Below, piece after piece: positions 44,365 through 53,485 of a DNA stretch of 64,000 nucleotides. The translations under genes were made by a program, and so were the position numbers. The notes under the pieces are model-generated. The model saw only the letters and a list, made by a program, of their open reading frames with translations. It did no database searches and was not told where the DNA came from. Within the stretch, counting starts at the first letter, position 1, and the number at the start of each line of letters is the position of its first letter. This DNA comes from Gammaproteobacteria bacterium (GTDB lineage Bacteria; Pseudomonadota; Gammaproteobacteria; Steroidobacterales; GCA-2729495): the NCBI GenBank assembly GCA_020851975.1, contig JADZBS010000003.1, positions 1 through 64,000 on the forward strand, read 5' to 3'.

Positions 44365-45618
44365 TCAGTACTTGAAGTTGAGGTCGAGCTGGAAGCGGTC
44401 GTAGTTGTGCTCGACGCCCGCATTCCCGCCAACCTCGTTGATGAAATAGGAGAGCGCGGCACTGGTCTTGTCCGTCAACGCGTAGGCACCGCGCAACAGG
44501 TGTCCGGAGTTGTCGGTGCCGCCGCCACCGAAGTCCGAATCCGTCCAGAGCCCGAATACCGCGTCGCGCTCCAGATCCTGATAGGCATAGAGGAACTCCC
44601 AGCTGCCCCGGGCCTTGGCCACGCCGAGTTGCGCGCCCGCCGCCCAGCCGGTGTCGAACTCGCCGGCATCGGTGTTGGTGACGTAGTCGATGAACAGGGA
44701 CACGGGCATGCCGAACAGCGCGAAACCAAGCTCGGCAAAGCCCTCCAGCTCGTCGTAGTCGTAGAGGTAGCGGTTGTTCGCGTCCACCGAATTGCCGAAG
44801 AACTTCGCCGACTTGCCCGGCACGGCATAGAAGCCGCCCTTGCCCTCGGTATTGATGGTGAAGTAGCCGGCACCAGCCGTCAGCTTCAGTCCATCCGCGA
44901 AGGGCCAGGCAACGCCGATCTGCCCGCCGGCGCCGATCGCCTCCGTGCTGTCGCTGTCGCTCTCGACCCAGGTGGTCATGGCGTTGGCGAAAAAGATGCC
45001 GTTCACGTACGACAGCCCGAGACCCTCCGGATTGAGGTCGCCGTCCCAGATCAGCGAGTGCTTCCCGGGCTTGTAGAGGTTGTTCCTGAACTTGCCGCCG
45101 ATGACGTTCAGGCCTTCCGCCGCCGCCCAGTTGAAGTAGGCGAGGTCGAGATAGATGTCCTTGCGCGAGCCGCCGCTGCCGATCGTCTGGTTGCTGGACA
45201 CCGGATCGGCATCCTGACTCGTGGACAGCCCGAAACCGACCTCCAGACCAGGCTCCGGCCTGGCGACGATCCCGGCGCGTGCGCGGATGCGTTCCCGGTT
45301 GCGCTCATCGCTCCTGCTGTCGTCGTCGATGTTCTCGTAGCGACCGCGCAGGTCGCCCTGCAGCGTCACCTTCTCGGCCCATGAAGCCGCGGCCGGCCTG
45401 GCTGGTGCCACTGCAGGTGCCGCAGTCGTCGCCACGGCCTCCGCCTGGCCCGTACGCGCCTTCTCCGCAGCCAGCGCCTGCTCCATCTGACCGAGCTTCT
45501 GCGTAAGGGCCGCGATGCTGTCCTTCAGCGCCTGGAACTCCGCGTCGGTGACGGCGGCCGGGGTGAGCGGGCTGGCGAGCAGCAGGCCTGCCGCCAGAGC
45601 GAGTCGTTTGCCGTTCAT
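44365..45618 (-). CDS. Putative outer-membrane porin of the Pho locus
   Basis: A 417-residue outer-membrane beta-barrel candidate. Residues 1-22 are a signal peptide, followed by a short coiled coil (FQALKDSIAALTQKLGQMEQ), an Ala/Pro linker and then alternating amphipathic strands ending in the aromatic terminus LNFKY. This layout is shared with trimeric OprO/OprP-like and 'putative porin' families. GAGGTG is at the ribosome-binding position before ATG 45618. A Pho-box-like site is 59 bp upstream, and pstB is 169 bp upstream on the same strand, so a role in phosphate or phosphoester uptake is likely. Confidence 0.83.
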   Translation of the reverse strand: MNGKRLALAAGLLLASPLTPAAVTDAEFQALKDSIAALTQKLGQMEQALAAEKARTGQAEAVATTAAPAVAPARPAAASWAEKVTLQGDLRGRYENIDDDSRSDERNRERIRARAGIVARPEPGLEVGFGLSTSQDADPVSSNQTIGSGGSRKDIYLDLAYFNWAAAEGLNVIGGKFRNNLYKPGKHSLIWDGDLNPEGLGLSYVNGIFFANAMTTWVESDSDSTEAIGAGGQIGVAWPFADGLKLTAGAGYFTINTEGKGGFYAVPGKSAKFFGNSVDANNRYLYDYDELEGFAELGFALFGMPVSLFIDYVTNTDAGEFDTGWAAGAQLGVAKARGSWEFLYAYQDLERDAVFGLWTDSDFGGGGTDNSGHLLRGAYALTDKTSAALSYFINEVGGNAGVEHNYDRFQLDLNFKY

Positions 45619-45660: not shown

Positions 45661-45694
45661 ATTGTCATTCCCCGAGGTTACGGATGCGTGACAC
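45661..45694 (-). promoter_or_regulatory. Pho box and -10 of the porin
   Basis: GTGTCAC-GCAT-CCGTAAC (45677-45694, minus strand), then exactly 10 nt and GACAAT (45661-45666). Consensus PhoB boxes are 7-4-7 with second half CTGT(A/C)A(C/T). Confidence 0.6.
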
Positions 45695-45787: not shown

Positions 45788-46681
45788 TCAACCAAATCGA
45801 CCTGTCACGTAGTCTTCGGTCAGCTTGTGACCTGGATTGGTGAAGATCTTCTCGGTGGGACCAACCTCGACGAGATTCCCAAGGTGAAAGTAGGCCGTAC
45901 GCTGCGATACCCGCGCAGCTTGTTGCATCGAGTGGGTGACGATCGCGATCGCGTACTTCTCGCGCAACTCATCGATGAGGTCCTCGATTCGCGCCGTGGC
46001 GATCGGATCGAGCGCCGAGCAGGGCTCGTCCATCAGGATGACATCGGGGCTCACCGCAATGGCTCGTGCAATGCACAGTCGCTGTTGCTGCCCACCGGAC
46101 AGCCCGGTACCCGGTTCGTCGAGGCGGTCCTTGACCTCGGCGAGGAGACCGGCACGTTCGAGGCTTTCGTAGACGATGTCGTCGAGCTGCCGGCGGCTGC
46201 CGGCGAGACCGTGAATACGCGGGCCATAGGCTACGTTCTCGAAAATCGACTTCGGAAACGGATTCGGCTTCTGGAACACCATGCCGACACGTGCCCGCAG
46301 GAGCACGACATCCATGTCCTTCGCGTAGATGTCCTGCCCGTCGAGGCGGAAATCACCCGTTACCCTGGCGGACTCGATGGTGTCGTTCATGCGGTTGAGA
46401 CAGCGGATGAACGTTGACTTGCCGCAGCCGGACGGGCCAATGAGCGAGACCACCTCGTTGCGACCGATGTCGAGACTGACCTGCTTCAGGGCGTGCGTGT
46501 CGCCGTAGTGCACGTTGCAGTCACGTACGGTGATCACCGGTTCGCGGGCATGGATATCGCCGACGGTTCCGGACCCGCCCCCCGTTCGTTGACTGGTGGT
46601 CGGTATTACAGGTCGATCAGTGCTTCGGTCGTCCAACGGCACGACAGGACTGCCTCCAGGCAGGGCGTTTTCGCGTGTCAT
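45788..46681 (-). CDS. pstB: Phosphate ABC transporter ATP-binding protein PstB
   Basis: Energises phosphate import through PstAC. The product is 297 residues from ATG 46681, with a 45-residue N-terminal extension before the ATPase (typical PstB is about 255). Walker A is [10 protein letters not shown], the Q-loop [10 protein letters not shown], the signature LSGGQQQRL, Walker [15 protein letters not shown] start inside the extension cannot be excluded. It follows pstA by 50 bp. Confidence 0.95.
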
Positions 46682-46731: not shown

Positions 46732-48051
46732 CTACCAGCGCCGCTCGAAGCGCCTGCGCAGCCAGACCGCCGCCAGGTTCATGACGAGCAGGAAGGCCAG
46801 CAGCACCATGATGGCCGCCGAGGTCCGCTCGATGAAGGCCCGCTCGGGACTGTCCGCCCATAGGTAGATCTGCACCGGCAGCGCCGTGGATGGATCCAGC
46901 GGCGTGCCTGGCACATCCGCCACGAACGCTACCATGCCTACCATCAGCAACGGCGCTGATTCACCGAGCGCGCGTGCCATGCCGATGATGGCACCCGTGA
47001 GCATGCCCGGCAGTGCCAGCGGCAGGACATGATGAAAGACCGTCTGCATCGGCGAAGCGCCGATGCCAAGCGCCGCTTCGCGCACCGAAGGCGGCACGGA
47101 CTTGATGGCTGCGCGTGCCGCGATGATGATCACCGGCAGCGTCATCAGCGTCAGCACCAGTCCGCCCACTACAGGTGCCGAGCGCGGCAGACCGAGAACG
47201 TTGATGAACACGGCCAGTCCCAGCAGGCCGAAGACGATCGATGGCACGGCCGCGAGATTGTTGATGTTGACCTCGATGAAGTCCGTCCAGCGATTTCGCG
47301 GCGCGAACTCCTCGAGGTAGATCGCCGCCGCCACACCGAGCGGGAACGACAGCAGCAGCGTCACCAGCAGCATGAAGAACGAACCCTTGGTGGCACCCCA
47401 GACGCCGGCCATCTCGGGTTCACGCGAATCACCGGAAACGAAGAACGCCCGGTTGAAATGCAGCTCCAGGCGCCCTTCGGCCTTGAGCCGGTCCACCCAG
47501 GCCAGTTGCGCCCCGCCGGGTCGTCCGCTGACCCCTGCTCCTCGCCCCACGTGGCCCTTGAGGAGCATGTCCACGAAGTCGTCTGCCGGCAGCCACAGCG
47601 ACTGGCGGGTGCCGAGCAACGAGGGGTTGGCGAGCAGCAGATCGCGAAGTTCGTATGCCGCCATCGGGCTGACCAGCCCATTGAGCTCACGACGTTCCCG
47701 TCGTTCCGTCACTTCCGGAAATTGCTCGCCCAGCGCAGACTTCACGAGAAGCTGGTAGTCGGCTCCGGACAACAGTCCCGGCTCGGCTCGACCCTCGGGA
47801 TCCAGCAGGGCACGATCGAAGTGGATGTCGAGCCGGACCTGTGCCTGACGGAAGGCGGAATAGCCGTTGCCAACGACACTGGCGAGCAGCAAGCCCAGGA
47901 AGACGATTCCGAACATCACCGAGAACAGGCCATACAGGCGAAACCGGCGCTCGCTGGCATGGCGCCTTGCAACTCCCGCCTCCACCTTCCGTCGCGCCTC
48001 CGACACGGGCCGTGTTGGGTTCGCATCCGCTCCGGGGTTGTCGTTGCTCAT
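46732..48051 (-). CDS. pstA: Phosphate ABC transporter permease PstA
   Basis: Inner-membrane permease, 439 residues, longer than E. coli PstA (about 296) because of an N-terminal cytoplasmic and periplasmic region (the DUF3333-type extension, about residues 30-210). The membrane core begins near [16 protein letters not shown]; the EAA-loop is [20 protein letters not shown]. The start overlaps the stop of pstC by 4 nt. Confidence 0.94.
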
Positions 48052-49436
48052 TCGTACTGCTCCCGGTAACGACGCACGACCAGGAGCGCGACGATATTGA
48101 GCACCAGCGTGACGATGAACAGCACCAGCCCCAGGGCGAACGCCGCCAGCGTCTTCGGGCTGTCGAACTCCTGGTCACCCACCAACAGAGTGACGATCTG
48201 TACCGTCACCGTAGTGACAGCCTCCAGCGGATTTACCGTTAGCCGGGCCGATAACCCCGCGGCCATCACCACGATCATGGTCTCGCCAATGGCACGGGAT
48301 ACCGCCAGCAGCACGCCACCGACGATGCCCGGCAGCGCGGCCGGTATCACCACGCGACGGGTGGTCTCCGAAGTCGTGGCACCCAGGGCAAGCGAGCCGT
48401 CGCGCAGCGACTGTGGCACGGCATTGATGACATCGTCGGACAGAGAAGATATGAACGGGATGATCATCACGCCCATCACGAGCCCGGCGCCGAGCGCACT
48501 TTCCGAGGCCACGTCGAGGCCCAACGCTTCGCCGCCCTCACGCAGCAGTGGTGCCACCGTCAGCGCAGCGAAGTAGCCGTAGACAACCGTCGGGATGCCG
48601 GCCAGCACTTCCAGCAGCGGCTTGACCAGCGCGCGCATGCGCGGTTCCGCATACTCCGACAGGTAAATGGCGACCATCAGGCCAATGGGCACGGCCACGG
48701 CCATGGCGATGGCGGAGATCAGCAACGTACCGGCGAACAGCGGAACGGCGCCGAAGGCGCCCGAGGATCCGACCTGGTCGGGGCGTAACGCCGTCTGCGG
48801 ACTCCACTCGAGGCCGAACAGGAAATCGATGATGGGCACCTGACCGAAGAAACGCACTGCCTCGAAGATCACCGACAGGAGGATGCCGACGGTCGTGAAG
48901 ACAGCGAGAGTCGAGGCGCCGATGAGCAGCGCCTTGACCATCGCCTCGACGCGATTTCGTGCCCTAAGCTGCGGACGTATTGTCCAGCACGCGAGCGCAC
49001 CACCAGCCAGCGCGAGTGCCAGCACGACCGCGGACAGCAGCCAGCGGGAAGCTGAGTGCAGCGCGAGAAACCGCCCGGCAACCGGTTCCAGCTCAGGCGG
49101 CCTCTCCCCGCCCATGGCCTGGCCGGAAGCCAGGGCGCGCACTTCATTCAGCACCAGACTCAGCTCCGACGCCTCCATTGAACGGTACGGCTCCGGCAGT
49201 GTCGTGATGACCTGTCCCATGACGACCCGGTCGCCGACCAGAGCCCACAACGCCAGCACCAGCAGCGCAGGAAGCGCCGAACACAAGGCGGCGTAGTAGC
49301 CATGGTGCGCAGGCAGCGAATGCAGATTGCGAATGCCACGATGACCACCGGCCATGGCGATGGCGCGGCGGCGGGCAGCGAAGTAGGCCAGTATCACCAG
49401 GGTGGCGAAGAGCAGCAGCATGGTTGTCAACCGCAT
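48048..49436 (-). CDS. pstC: Phosphate ABC transporter permease PstC
   Basis: Partner permease of PstA, 462 residues from ATG 49436 (MRLTTMLLLFATLVILAYFA, an extra N-terminal helix). As with PstA it is longer than in E. coli (about 320) through an N-terminal extension of about 150 residues. The EAA-type loop is SLALGATTSETTRRVVIP. Start at 49436 rather than 49505 because the upstream residues do not fit a membrane protein. Confidence 0.94.
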   Translation of the reverse strand: MRLTTMLLLFATLVILAYFAARRRAIAMAGGHRGIRNLHSLPAHHGYYAALCSALPALLVLALWALVGDRVVMGQVITTLPEPYRSMEASELSLVLNEVRALASGQAMGGERPPELEPVAGRFLALHSASRWLLSAVVLALALAGGALACWTIRPQLRARNRVEAMVKALLIGASTLAVFTTVGILLSVIFEAVRFFGQVPIIDFLFGLEWSPQTALRPDQVGSSGAFGAVPLFAGTLLISAIAMAVAVPIGLMVAIYLSEYAEPRMRALVKPLLEVLAGIPTVVYGYFAALTVAPLLREGGEALGLDVASESALGAGLVMGVMIIPFISSLSDDVINAVPQSLRDGSLALGATTSETTRRVVIPAALPGIVGGVLLAVSRAIGETMIVVMAAGLSARLTVNPLEAVTTVTVQIVTLLVGDQEFDSPKTLAAFALGLVLFIVTLVLNIVALLVVRRYREQYE

Positions 49437-49471
49437 GTTTCGCTGGTCTCCCTTTCCAGGCAGGAAACGAC

Positions 49472-49494
49472 GGCGACCTGAAAACCAGGCCGCC
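49472..49494 (-). repeat. Stable hairpin between pstS and pstC
   Basis: 9-bp stem (GGCGGCCTG/CAGGTCGCC, one G-T pair) with a 5-nt loop GTTTT in the 98-bp pstS-pstC gap. No T-run. It probably protects the pstS mRNA or attenuates the downstream permease genes, as seen for periplasmic binding proteins generally. Confidence 0.5.
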
Positions 49495-49534
49495 GCCGGC
49501 ACCATCTCATCGACGTCATGCCCCTGGGCGCCTT

Positions 49535-50596
49535 CTATTTCACGGGACCCATGGCCGCAAGATCGCGCGCTGCCTGCTGCACGGCACTCAACTCGGCGGC
49601 GGGCAGCGGAATCAGTCCCTTGTCGGACAGGTAACCTTCCGCACCCATCGTCTTGTTACTCGTGAACTCAGCCAGGAATTCCCTGAGGCCGGGAATCGGG
49701 CCGACATGCGCCTTCTTCACGTAGAAGAACAGCGGGCGTGACACCGGGTATGCACCCGAAGCGATGGCCTGAAAGGCTGGCGCCTGGCCGTCCACCGTCG
49801 CGCCCTGTACCGCGTCTTCGTTCTGCTCGAGAAAGCTGTAGCCAAAGATTCCCAAAGCGTTCGGATTGGCCTTCAGCTTCTGCACGATGAGGTTGTCGTT
49901 CTCACCAGCCTCGATGAAGCGCCCGTCCTCGCGGATGGTCTGGCATATCCCCTTGAACTTCACTTCGTCCTCTTCCTTGATGGCCGCGATCCACGGGAAT
50001 GCCTTGCAGCCGCCTTCCATCGCCAGTTCCACGAACGCATCTCGCGTACCGGATGTCGGCGGCGGACCGAGCACTTCGATGATGCGGTCCGGAAGGGCCG
50101 GATCCACGTCACGCCAGGTCCTGTATGGGTTGGTTATCAGCGTCGCGCCACCCTTCGGATCCGGGACCTGCCTGGCCAGCGCCAGGAAGATGGCCTTGCG
50201 GGTCAGTGCGAGACGGGACGATGCCACGGAACTGGCGAAGACGATGCCATCGTAGCCAATCTTTATCTCGACGATCTCCCTGACCCCGTTCTTCGCGCAC
50301 TCGGTTACTTCCGAGCTCTTGATACGACGCGAACTGTTGGCCACATCAGGATGCTTCACGCCGACGCCGGCGCAGAACAACCTGATGCCGCCGCCGGATC
50401 CCGTCGACTCGATCTTCGGTGTCCTGAACTTCGAGGTCCGTCCAAACTGTTCGGCCACCACGGTGGCGAACGGATAGACAGTGGACGACCCGACGATGCT
50501 GATGTAGTCGCGGGCGACCTGGCCCCAGGCCAGGGATGAAGCGAGTCCCGCCGCGATGAGCCCGGCCATGGGGCCGGTGTGAAAAATCCGTCGCAC
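49535..50596 (-). CDS. pstS: Phosphate-binding protein PstS
   Basis: Periplasmic phosphate receptor of the Pst system, 353 residues from GTG 50596 with GGGAGG 7 nt upstream. A signal peptide of about 25 residues ends in AWG. Phosphate-contact segments ISIVGSSTVYPFA, ESTGSGGG and PPPTSGTRDAFVE are present. The promoter with a Pho box lies in the 3' end of phoU. Confidence 0.95.
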   Translation of the reverse strand: MRRIFHTGPMAGLIAAGLASSLAWGQVARDYISIVGSSTVYPFATVVAEQFGRTSKFRTPKIESTGSGGGIRLFCAGVGVKHPDVANSSRRIKSSEVTECAKNGVREIVEIKIGYDGIVFASSVASSRLALTRKAIFLALARQVPDPKGGATLITNPYRTWRDVDPALPDRIIEVLGPPPTSGTRDAFVELAMEGGCKAFPWIAAIKEEDEVKFKGICQTIREDGRFIEAGENDNLIVQKLKANPNALGIFGYSFLEQNEDAVQGATVDGQAPAFQAIASGAYPVSRPLFFYVKKAHVGPIPGLREFLAEFTSNKTMGAEGYLSDKGLIPLPAAELSAVQQAARDLAAMGPVK

Positions 50597-50633
50597 TGAA
50601 ACCTCCCTTGTCGCACTTCCATGAGGTGCGGGC

Positions 50634-50667
50634 AGTCTAGGGTGGCCGTGTTACGGATTTGTGTCAG
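50634..50667 (-). promoter_or_regulatory. Pho box and -10 of pstS, within the end of phoU
   Basis: CTGACAC-AAAT-CCGTAAC (50650-50667, minus strand), 10 nt, then TAGACT (50634-50639). The box covers the last codons and TAA stop of phoU. Confidence 0.65.
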
Positions 50668-51379
50668 GGAGACCCATCTCCTGCTTGACGACCTCGATGC
50701 CGACGTGGCGGATGTCCTTGCCGTGCACCAGGTAGACGACGTACTCGGCGATGTTCTTGGCGTGGTCACCGATGCGCTCGAGCGCGCGGGCCGCCCAGGT
50801 GACATCAAGGAACCGGCGGATGGTACGCGGATCCTCCATCATCAGGCTGATGCACTGGCGGGTGATCATGTCGTATTGCTCGTCCACCAGCTTGTCTTCC
50901 TCCACCACGGCCAGTGCATCCTCGGCATCCATCCGCGAGAAGGCGTCGAGCGAATTCCTGACCATTTCCTGCACATGCCCGGCCAGTGCCTCCAGTTCGT
51001 GGTACTCGCCGTGCCCCTGCTTCTCGGTTGCGAGGTGCGCCGCCAGCATCGCGAGCTTGCGGCCCTCGTCACCGATGCGCTCGAGATCGGTGATGGCCTT
51101 GATGACCGAGATGACCAGGCGGAGGTCGGCCGCTGCCGGGCCACGCGTGGCAAGGATCCGGGTGCATTCCTCGTCGATGGCAACCTCCATGCGGTTGACC
51201 TTGTAATCCTCGGCAGCGATCCGCAGACCCATCTCGCTGTCGCCGGACACCAGCGCCTGAACCGCCACGTCGAGGTGCTGCTCCACCAGGCCGCCCATGC
51301 GCAGCACCTCGCTGCGGACGTGCTCCAGCTCCTCGTTGAAACGGCGTGAGATGTGCTGGCTGAAACTCTCTGCTTCCAT
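50651..51379 (-). CDS. phoU: Phosphate signalling regulator PhoU
   Basis: Helical-bundle protein that links Pst transport to PhoR inhibition in high phosphate. It has 242 residues from ATG 51379 (MEAESFSQHISRRFNEELEH), which aligns with E. coli PhoU; ATG 51409 would add 10 residues. Metal-binding repeats E/DxxxD (for example IEEDKL-type VVEEDKLVDEQYD and ERIGDHAKN) occur in both halves. The gene sits between phoR and pstS, unlike the E. coli order where it ends the pst operon. Confidence 0.95.
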   Translation of the reverse strand: MEAESFSQHISRRFNEELEHVRSEVLRMGGLVEQHLDVAVQALVSGDSEMGLRIAAEDYKVNRMEVAIDEECTRILATRGPAAADLRLVISVIKAITDLERIGDEGRKLAMLAAHLATEKQGHGEYHELEALAGHVQEMVRNSLDAFSRMDAEDALAVVEEDKLVDEQYDMITRQCISLMMEDPRTIRRFLDVTWAARALERIGDHAKNIAEYVVYLVHGKDIRHVGIEVVKQEMGLPDTNP

Positions 51380-51421
51380 GGCGGCCTCACTTTGAGCGCA
51401 TTGGCTCATGCAATCGGTTGC

Positions 51422-52714
51422 TCACGAGGATACGGCAAGGCGATGCGGCGGAAAATGACAGGTGAACTGACTGCCCTCACCGATGCGGCTGCGAATCTCC
51501 AGCACGGCGTCGTGGCGGCGCAGGGCATGCTTGACGATGGCCAGCCCCAGGCCCGTGCCGCCCGCGTGGTACGCCCGCCCGCGATCGGTGCGATAGAAAC
51601 GCTCGGTCACCCTCGGAATGTCCTCCTCGGCGATACCGATACCGGAATCTGCCACCGTCAGGTGCCCACCCTCATCATCGACGTTCCAGCAGATGCGGAT
51701 CGTGCCTGCTGCCGGCGTGTAACGCACAGCGTTGGAAACGAGATTGGTGACGACGGACTGCATCTCGGCAGCATCGCCCAGCACCCGCGCGTCGCTGCCA
51801 ATTTCCACCTCGACCTGGCGGGGGGACCCGGGTGTGACCATTGCCTCCCGGCGCGCCGTTTGCAACAGGCCTGCCATGTCGACGGCTCGCTCGTGTGAAC
51901 AGCGCGCGCCGGATTCCAGCCTGGACAACTGCAACAGATCATCGAGCAGCTGGCTCATGCGCTGCGACTGAGCACGCATGTCGGTTATCGGCTCGTACCA
52001 GAGGTCTGCCAGATCCTCATCGCCCGCCATGGCATCGAGGTAGCCGCTGATGACCGTCAACGGTGTGCGCAACTCGTGTGATGCATTGGCGACGAAATCG
52101 CGGCGGGTACGTTCCAGCCTCACGTCTTCCGTGATGTCGCGCACCAGCAGCAGGGACTGGTGCGGCCCGTAGGGGATCAGCAGACAGAACAGCCAGTTGT
52201 CGCCACCGACCGGCGCGGGTACCTCGACCCCCGGACCATGGTCGTTTCCATGCAGGTAGGCGATGAAATCCGGGTGGCGCAGCAGGTTTTCAATGCGCTG
52301 TCCGCGGTCCCTCAGGCGACGCAGGCCGAGCAGCCGTTCGGCAGCGATGTTGTGGGCGACGATCTCCCGCTTTTCATCGAGCAGTACTCCACCATCCGGG
52401 AATGCTCCGGCCGAGGCCCGCAGCTCGCGCACGAGCCGGCGCCAGCGCCGACGTTCGTGCCGCACCTTGTCCCTGAGATATTCGATCCGGGCGAAAACCG
52501 GCGGCCAGATGCCGACGCCGTCCGGCACGGCTTCGATGTGGCCGGTGCGAAGCCAGGTATCGAGCCGGTACAGGTTGACGAGGTGCCAGCCCAGCAGCGC
52601 CAGTGCCCCACCGAGCAAGCCGACCACCGCGTGGTCATACAGCCAGCCCACCAGCCCTCCCATGGCCAGCGCAGCCAGGTGGCGCAGCAGCGAGGAACTC
52701 CACACGGGCGACAT
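51422..52714 (-). CDS. phoR: Phosphate-responsive sensor histidine kinase PhoR
   Basis: Inner-membrane kinase that phosphorylates PhoB, 430 residues. Two hydrophobic stretches in residues 8-47 anchor it, a PAS-like domain is near 100-200, the phospho-acceptor His is in FVANASHELRTPL, and the catalytic domain holds the N box (VTNLVSNAVRYT) and G boxes (DSGIGI, GTGLGLAIV). phoB stops 21 bp upstream. No large periplasmic sensor is seen, as in other PhoR. Confidence 0.95.
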   Translation of the reverse strand: MSPVWSSSLLRHLAALAMGGLVGWLYDHAVVGLLGGALALLGWHLVNLYRLDTWLRTGHIEAVPDGVGIWPPVFARIEYLRDKVRHERRRWRRLVRELRASAGAFPDGGVLLDEKREIVAHNIAAERLLGLRRLRDRGQRIENLLRHPDFIAYLHGNDHGPGVEVPAPVGGDNWLFCLLIPYGPHQSLLLVRDITEDVRLERTRRDFVANASHELRTPLTVISGYLDAMAGDEDLADLWYEPITDMRAQSQRMSQLLDDLLQLSRLESGARCSHERAVDMAGLLQTARREAMVTPGSPRQVEVEIGSDARVLGDAAEMQSVVTNLVSNAVRYTPAAGTIRICWNVDDEGGHLTVADSGIGIAEEDIPRVTERFYRTDRGRAYHAGGTGLGLAIVKHALRRHDAVLEIRSRIGEGSQFTCHFPPHRLAVSS

Positions 52715-52735: not shown

Positions 52736-53422
52736 CTAGCGGACCGACAGGCGGTAGCCCGTCCCGCGTACCGTCTGCACGTAACGTGCACCACCAGAAG
52801 GCTCCAGAGCCTGGCGCAACCGCCGGACATGGACATCGACCGTACGTTCCTCGATGTACACGTTGCGGCCCCAGACCTGGTCGAGCAGCTGGCTGCGCGT
52901 GAATACGCGCTCCTGGTTCTGCATGAGGAACCTGAGCAGGCGGTATTCGGTAGGCCCGAGATTGACCTGGTGATCGCCCACACGTACGCGACAACCCACG
53001 GTGTCGATGCACAACTCCCCAGCTACCAGAACGACGTCATCCGGCGGGCTGGCGCGCCTCAGCAGAGCATTGATCCTTGCCAGCAATTCGCGCGCCGAGA
53101 ACGGCTTGGTGATGTAGTCATCGGCACCACCCTCGAGACCGGTGAGCTTGTCGCGCTCCTCGGCACGTGCGGTCAGCATGATGATGGGAAGGTCGCGACT
53201 CGATTCGTCACGACGCAACGTACGCATCAACTCCAGCCCGCTCGAGTCCGGCAGCATCCAGTCCACCAGCACCAGGTCAGGGCGACCATCGGCGATGAGG
53301 GTCCGTGCCGTCGTGCAGTCCGGCGCCTCCTCGACGTCGAACCCGGCCCGGGTCAGATTGAAGGCAATCATGCGTCGGATCGGCGCCTCGTCTTCGACGA
53401 TCAGTACCTTCCTGGCGCCCAT
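52736..53422 (-). CDS. phoB: Phosphate regulon response regulator PhoB
   Basis: OmpR/PhoB-type transcription factor. Receiver domain phosphorylation site Asp is in LVLVDWMLP; Lys in YITKPFS; the winged-helix domain contains LLDQVWGRNVYIEERTVDVHVRRLRQAL. I start at ATG 53422 (MGARKVLIVEDEAP, 228 residues), which matches E. coli PhoB length. A Pho box with -10 just upstream predicts a leader of about 25 nt for this start. ATG 53443 is the alternative. Confidence 0.96.
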   Translation of the reverse strand: MGARKVLIVEDEAPIRRMIAFNLTRAGFDVEEAPDCTTARTLIADGRPDLVLVDWMLPDSSGLELMRTLRRDESSRDLPIIMLTARAEERDKLTGLEGGADDYITKPFSARELLARINALLRRASPPDDVVLVAGELCIDTVGCRVRVGDHQVNLGPTEYRLLRFLMQNQERVFTRSQLLDQVWGRNVYIEERTVDVHVRRLRQALEPSGGARYVQTVRGTGYRLSVR

Positions 53423-53451: not shown

Positions 53452-53485
53452 ATTGCACCAATCTTGTATTACAAACAGGTTACGC
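53452..53485 (-). promoter_or_regulatory. Pho box and -10 of phoB (autoregulation)
   Basis: GCGTAAC-CTGT-TTGTAAT (53468-53485, minus strand), 10 nt, then TGCAAT (53452-53457). The downstream half matches the consensus CTGTAAT at six of seven positions. Confidence 0.55.

Follow-up and report, generated by a model that had tools for sequence, protein, structure and literature searches.

Does a Pho box that lies in the closing codons of phoU act as a promoter for the genes behind it, and does its position there matter to PhoU? The question comes from a first-pass annotation of a 64,000-nucleotide stretch of DNA (hereafter the window), which described a box over the last phoU codons and the TAA stop, followed after exactly 10 nt by TAGACT. 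From this arrangement it proposed a PhoB-controlled pstSCAB promoter, separate from that of phoB-phoR-phoU, and a constraint on the C-terminal residues of PhoU. The sequence is as described and the coordinates and spacings are upheld, with the distance from the −10 element to pstS measured as 37 nt.

The phoU-pstS junction and its gene cluster

A row of genes lies on the minus strand of the window: phoB, phoR, phoU, pstS, pstC, pstA, pstB and a porin gene (Table 1). PhoB (TIGR02154), PhoR (TIGR02966), PhoU (TIGR02135), PstC (TIGR02138), PstA (TIGR00974) and PstB (TIGR00972) all score above their profile cut-offs. PstS matches TIGR02136 below the cut-off and has a clear match to Pfam PBP_like_2. 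In both PstC and PstA, an N-terminal region of ∼190 residues precedes the part that corresponds to the permease profile.

Table 1. Genes and predicted regulatory elements of the phosphate cluster in the window
Feature	Position	Strand	Remarks
Pho box upstream of phoB (predicted)	53468..53485	-	GCGTAACCTGTTTGTAAT, then 10 nt and TGCAAT; conserved in the family
phoB	52736..53422	-	ATG at 53422 likely; longer ORF from 53461
phoR	51422..52714	-	
phoU	50651..51409	-	ATG at 51379 is the likelier start, by comparison with relatives
Pho box of the pstS promoter (putative PhoB site)	50667-50650	-	CTGACAC-AAAT-CCGTAAC = CTGACACAAATCCGTAAC; overlaps PhoU codons PDTNP and TAA
Spacer, Pho box to −10	50649-50640	-	ACGGCCACCC; 10 nt, the length in the E. 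coli pstS promoter
−10 element	50639-50634	-	TAGACT
pstS Shine-Dalgarno	50607-50602	-	GGGAGG
pstS, phosphate-binding protein	49535..50596	-	GTG start
pstC	48048..49505	-	
pstA	46732..48051	-	
pstB	45788..46540	-	Start approximate
Pho box upstream of porin (predicted)	45677..45694	-	GTGTCACGCATCCGTAAC; position conserved in the family
porin	44365..45618	-	Pfam Porin_5

The box before pstS comprises two direct-repeat half-sites of 7 nt each, 4 nt apart (for the definition of a Pho box, see PMC4415409), and spans the last five PhoU codons together with the stop. PhoU ends in ...GLPDTNP*, encoded by ATG GGT CTC CCT GAC ACA AAT CCG TAA, so that the first 17 letters of the box read (C)CT GAC ACA AAT CCG TAA. 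The conserved TAGACT lies 10 nt past the box, within the spacing of about 10–11 nt, without a −35, that is typical of the class. It agrees with the −10 consensus at four of six positions, and among 19 aligned sequences A2 and T6 are invariant and T1 is nearly so. No sigma-70 −35/−10 pair was found at the pstS promoter, nor any terminator-like site between phoU and pstS. The GTG of pstS (50596) lies 37 nt past TAGACT, and the GGGAGG falls within those 37 nt. The idea of a conserved hairpin in the pstS leader was rejected, because the window leader folds no better than shuffles (z 0.62).

Two further Pho boxes are present in the cluster. The box upstream of phoB is not significant alone, since 1.16 sites of such strength are expected under a Markov model; it gains support as a candidate site from where it lies and from being conserved in relatives, and it points to possible autoregulation of phoB. 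The box upstream of the porin gene, missing from the first-pass annotation, is the window's best match to an E. coli PhoB matrix (see below), and the Porin_5 porin at the cluster end is probably phosphate-inducible. With boxes before phoB and porin as well, the cluster has three predicted phosphate-controlled entry points. As sequence and conservation together demonstrate, it is laid out as three successive putative Pho-box units (phoB-phoR-phoU, pstS-C-A-B and porin), which provides a well-supported map of the phosphate-regulon core in an uncultivated gammaproteobacterial lineage. As far as sequence can tell, the proposal that the pstS promoter is separate from that of phoB-phoR-phoU is supported by this layout, in which a second predicted Pho-box promoter sits before phoB.

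A conserved, probable promoter and the end of phoU

We compared the locus across a family sample of 40 genomes; PhoU and PstS occur in 23 of them, the window included. pstS comes immediately after phoU in every one of these, and in 20 of the 23 (window included) the box and the −10 element occupy the same register. G017 and G036 carry instead TGTAAT-N5-TGTAAT, with TAGACT or TACACT spaced from it as in the standard form. G032 (L047) has an intact phoB-phoR-phoU-pstS row, yet no recognisable box before pstS; in this genome the porin-position box is also absent and the phoB box is kept. Over the 20 standard-box genomes, information content is 1.38 bits per column in the box and 1.48 in the −10 element, against 0.17 both for the 30 nt before the box (phoU codons included) and for the leader. 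Comparison of bases with codons in relatives had been suggested as a check, and it finds the box bases conserved and the codons just upstream not.

Close homologues of PhoU and PstS are jointly missing from 16 of the 40 family genomes, G004, G005, G008 and G009 among them (G016: pstS fragment only). Several of these 16 are >95% complete. Apparently, the whole phosphate cluster comes and goes together.

Elsewhere in the order (families f6, f7 and several others), box and −10 element also precede pstS, and the upstream gene is a divergent one that we take to be dapE-like from our own reading of its N-terminal sequence. For each genome, this cross-family scan reported whichever site scored highest within 420 nt, and weak entries may be spurious; the TTGCAACAATTCGGTAAC-N10-TAAGCT that recurs before pstS in f7 is not among these. 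The presence of box and −10 element where a divergent dapE-like gene lies upstream indicates that the promoter goes with pstS, independent of phoU.

Of the 23 genomes, 8 have the phoU stop inside the box and 14 have it before the box, the remaining genome being the one without a box; for standard boxes, the distance from stop to box start ranges from −14 to +22. Within the box, the stop occupies positions 15–17 (G000, G007), 7–9 (G006) or 2–4 (G035, G062, G061, G060, G014). On a phoB-phoU tree, which was built without G060 (grouped by its PhoU tail), stop-in-box overlaps arose in at least four lineages and at three different box positions: in the G035 group, in G014, in G006 and in G000/G007, the last representing one or two events (support of 0.70 at the relevant node).

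The tails of PhoU suggest how such an overlap comes about. Congeners without overlap end in EMGVG (G001), EIGLG (G003) or EKIGLV (G002), and the overlapping congeners G000, G007 and G006 carry the extra tails PDTNP, RTPQIGDEPEINP and ASPLK, with the stop in the box. The conserved end of PhoU (ATGGGTCTC) is 1 nt from the box in the window versus 9–17 nt in short-tail congeners, a difference that a short deletion in the lineage of the window could explain. The PhoU profiles end at residues 233 and 245 of 252, and the PDTNP tail lies beyond both. On this evidence, the window's PDTNP was added late and is translated from box sequence, and the box-encoded tail looks dispensable, with no apparent competition with a conserved protein feature. 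The simplest reading of the sequences is that the native phoU stop was lost and the frame ran on to the next stop, inside the box. The constraint originally proposed for the C-terminal residues of PhoU survives in part: the DNA site does dictate the tail, but the tail itself is non-conserved and outside the PhoU profiles, and close relatives lack it or encode it differently.

We consider it very unlikely that the overlap is functional, either because a phoU gene ending on a PhoB site would couple PhoU synthesis to the pst promoter or because the box would be a fail-safe stop for phoU. It is just as improbable that the box doubles as a phoU translation terminator, with selection keeping stops there and tying termination of PhoU synthesis to the pst promoter. 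Family boxes do close 2.2 reading frames on average versus 0.87 in same-letter shuffles, and in 9 of 12 genomes in which phoU stops earlier, the next in-frame stop also falls in the box. However, the 14 family genomes without overlap and the differing geometry between lineages argue against a shared function, and f6 boxes, which have a divergent dapE-like gene upstream and need no stop, also close ∼1.9 frames. The stops can therefore be read as a by-product of the motif letters; selection for stop codons in the box was rejected as unsupported, f6 boxes carrying nearly as many. We instead regard the overlap as a local, lineage-specific accident in several independent versions, and the promoter itself as ordinary. 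Overlap results when a gene end drifts onto a regulatory site that stays fixed, and embedded stops end the frame once the native stop is lost.

Another gene pair with its upstream stop inside a similar box occurs in a different family (G124; L115, ∼1500–1518 after strand reversal), where a beta-barrel-like protein is followed by a receptor-like protein and the spaced −10 is TAGGCT. In the open literature, we found nothing specific on the phoU-pstS arrangement or on stop codons that overlap a Pho box, which does not prove absence.

Predicted activity of the site

Considered together, the data make it very probable that the site is a PhoB-activated pstSCAB promoter onto which the end of phoU has drifted. 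It precedes a phosphate-acquisition gene, is conserved in relatives and lies in a genome whose PhoB orthologue has a matching DNA-binding helix: in an alignment to E. coli PhoB chains, the recognition helix EERTVDVHVRRLRQAL is nearly identical to EDRTVDVHIRRLRKAL of E. coli.

An intragenic PhoB site may of course be inert, as most are in E. coli (PMC10294691), and the lack of a terminator-like site between phoU and pstS would suit a model in which read-through from the phoB promoter is the sole source of pstSCAB transcripts. This model is very unlikely to apply here, where the site, unlike the inert E. coli sites, is strongly conserved together with a correctly spaced, conserved −10 element, and where the box is present also in genomes with neither phoB nor phoU upstream of pstS. 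A modest lesson is that intragenic position alone does not mean an inert PhoB site; conservation and a spaced −10 element discriminate.

The site also stands out within the window. A family matrix, derived from box plus −10 at the corresponding position of 20 related genomes with the window left out, gives the pstS site a score of 37.0, with the runner-up among ∼128,000 window positions at 6.9. A second matrix, from 59 E. coli PhoB ChIP-seq sites (PMC10294691, Table 1) and independent of this site, places the porin, pstS and phoB boxes first, second and third of 127,966 window positions (45693, 50666 and 53484, respectively, all on the cluster coding strand). Under a first-order Markov model, 0.05 sites as strong as the pstS box are expected per window. 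Because two matrices that do not contain the site both single it out, a chance resemblance can be dismissed. An IUPAC pattern designed to cover the site matches exactly once in the window, and allowing three mismatches or fewer gives two matches versus 0.5 expected; taken alone, this permissive pattern is of weak significance. That weakness, and the few bases that define a Pho box, are what a chance match to a loose consensus would draw on, an explanation made extremely improbable by a leave-one-out score far above all other positions, by conservation across families and by the agreement of the independent E. coli matrix. Across the whole of its own genome, a promoter model finds no other strong copy, the pstS site being the only match, and apart from two weak sites a further search returned just the porin box. 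Both the matrices and the conservation in family and order thus favor the PhoB-type promoter predicted directly before pstS at first pass.

In the mechanism we propose for this promoter, phosphorylated PhoB would bind both half-sites in tandem under phosphate starvation, substitute for the missing −35 and recruit sigma-70 RNA polymerase to TAGACT, with transcription probably starting near 50627. This standard mechanism is likely because the recognition helix is close to that of E. coli, the box is phoE-like and the spacing is that of the E. coli pstS promoter (spacing rules for PhoB sites are discussed in PMC10294691). Read-through between cluster units is also likely, since no terminator-like site separates phoU from pstS. 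The promoter keeps its place before pstS across the order, and it is phoU that shifts. In the window lineage, comparison with relatives suggests that phoU lost its stop, apparently by a short deletion, and that its frame now ends in the box, adding PDTNP.

Comparison with known systems

The E. coli pstS promoter shares with the window site tandem half-sites spaced by 11 bp, 10 nt between box and −10 element, a position before pstS and a Pho box in place of the −35. It differs in having two boxes, in an intergenic position after glmS, whereas here a single box lies in the end of phoU. The position of phoU itself also differs: in E. coli it is the last gene of the pst operon, and here it precedes pstS. 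The E. coli phoE box, CTGTAATATATCTTTAAC, is almost the family consensus CTGAAATAWTTCCTTAAC and is near-identical to the window box, but it drives a porin and is intergenic. One parallel in position is TGACACAAATCTTTAATC in E. coli yfiN, upstream of yfiB (PMC10294691), which is intragenic, near the start of the next gene and very similar in its letters. Most PhoB sites that lie within E. coli genes are inert and poorly conserved (Fitzgerald et al., 2023, PMC10294691); in contrast, the window site is conserved together with its −10 element.
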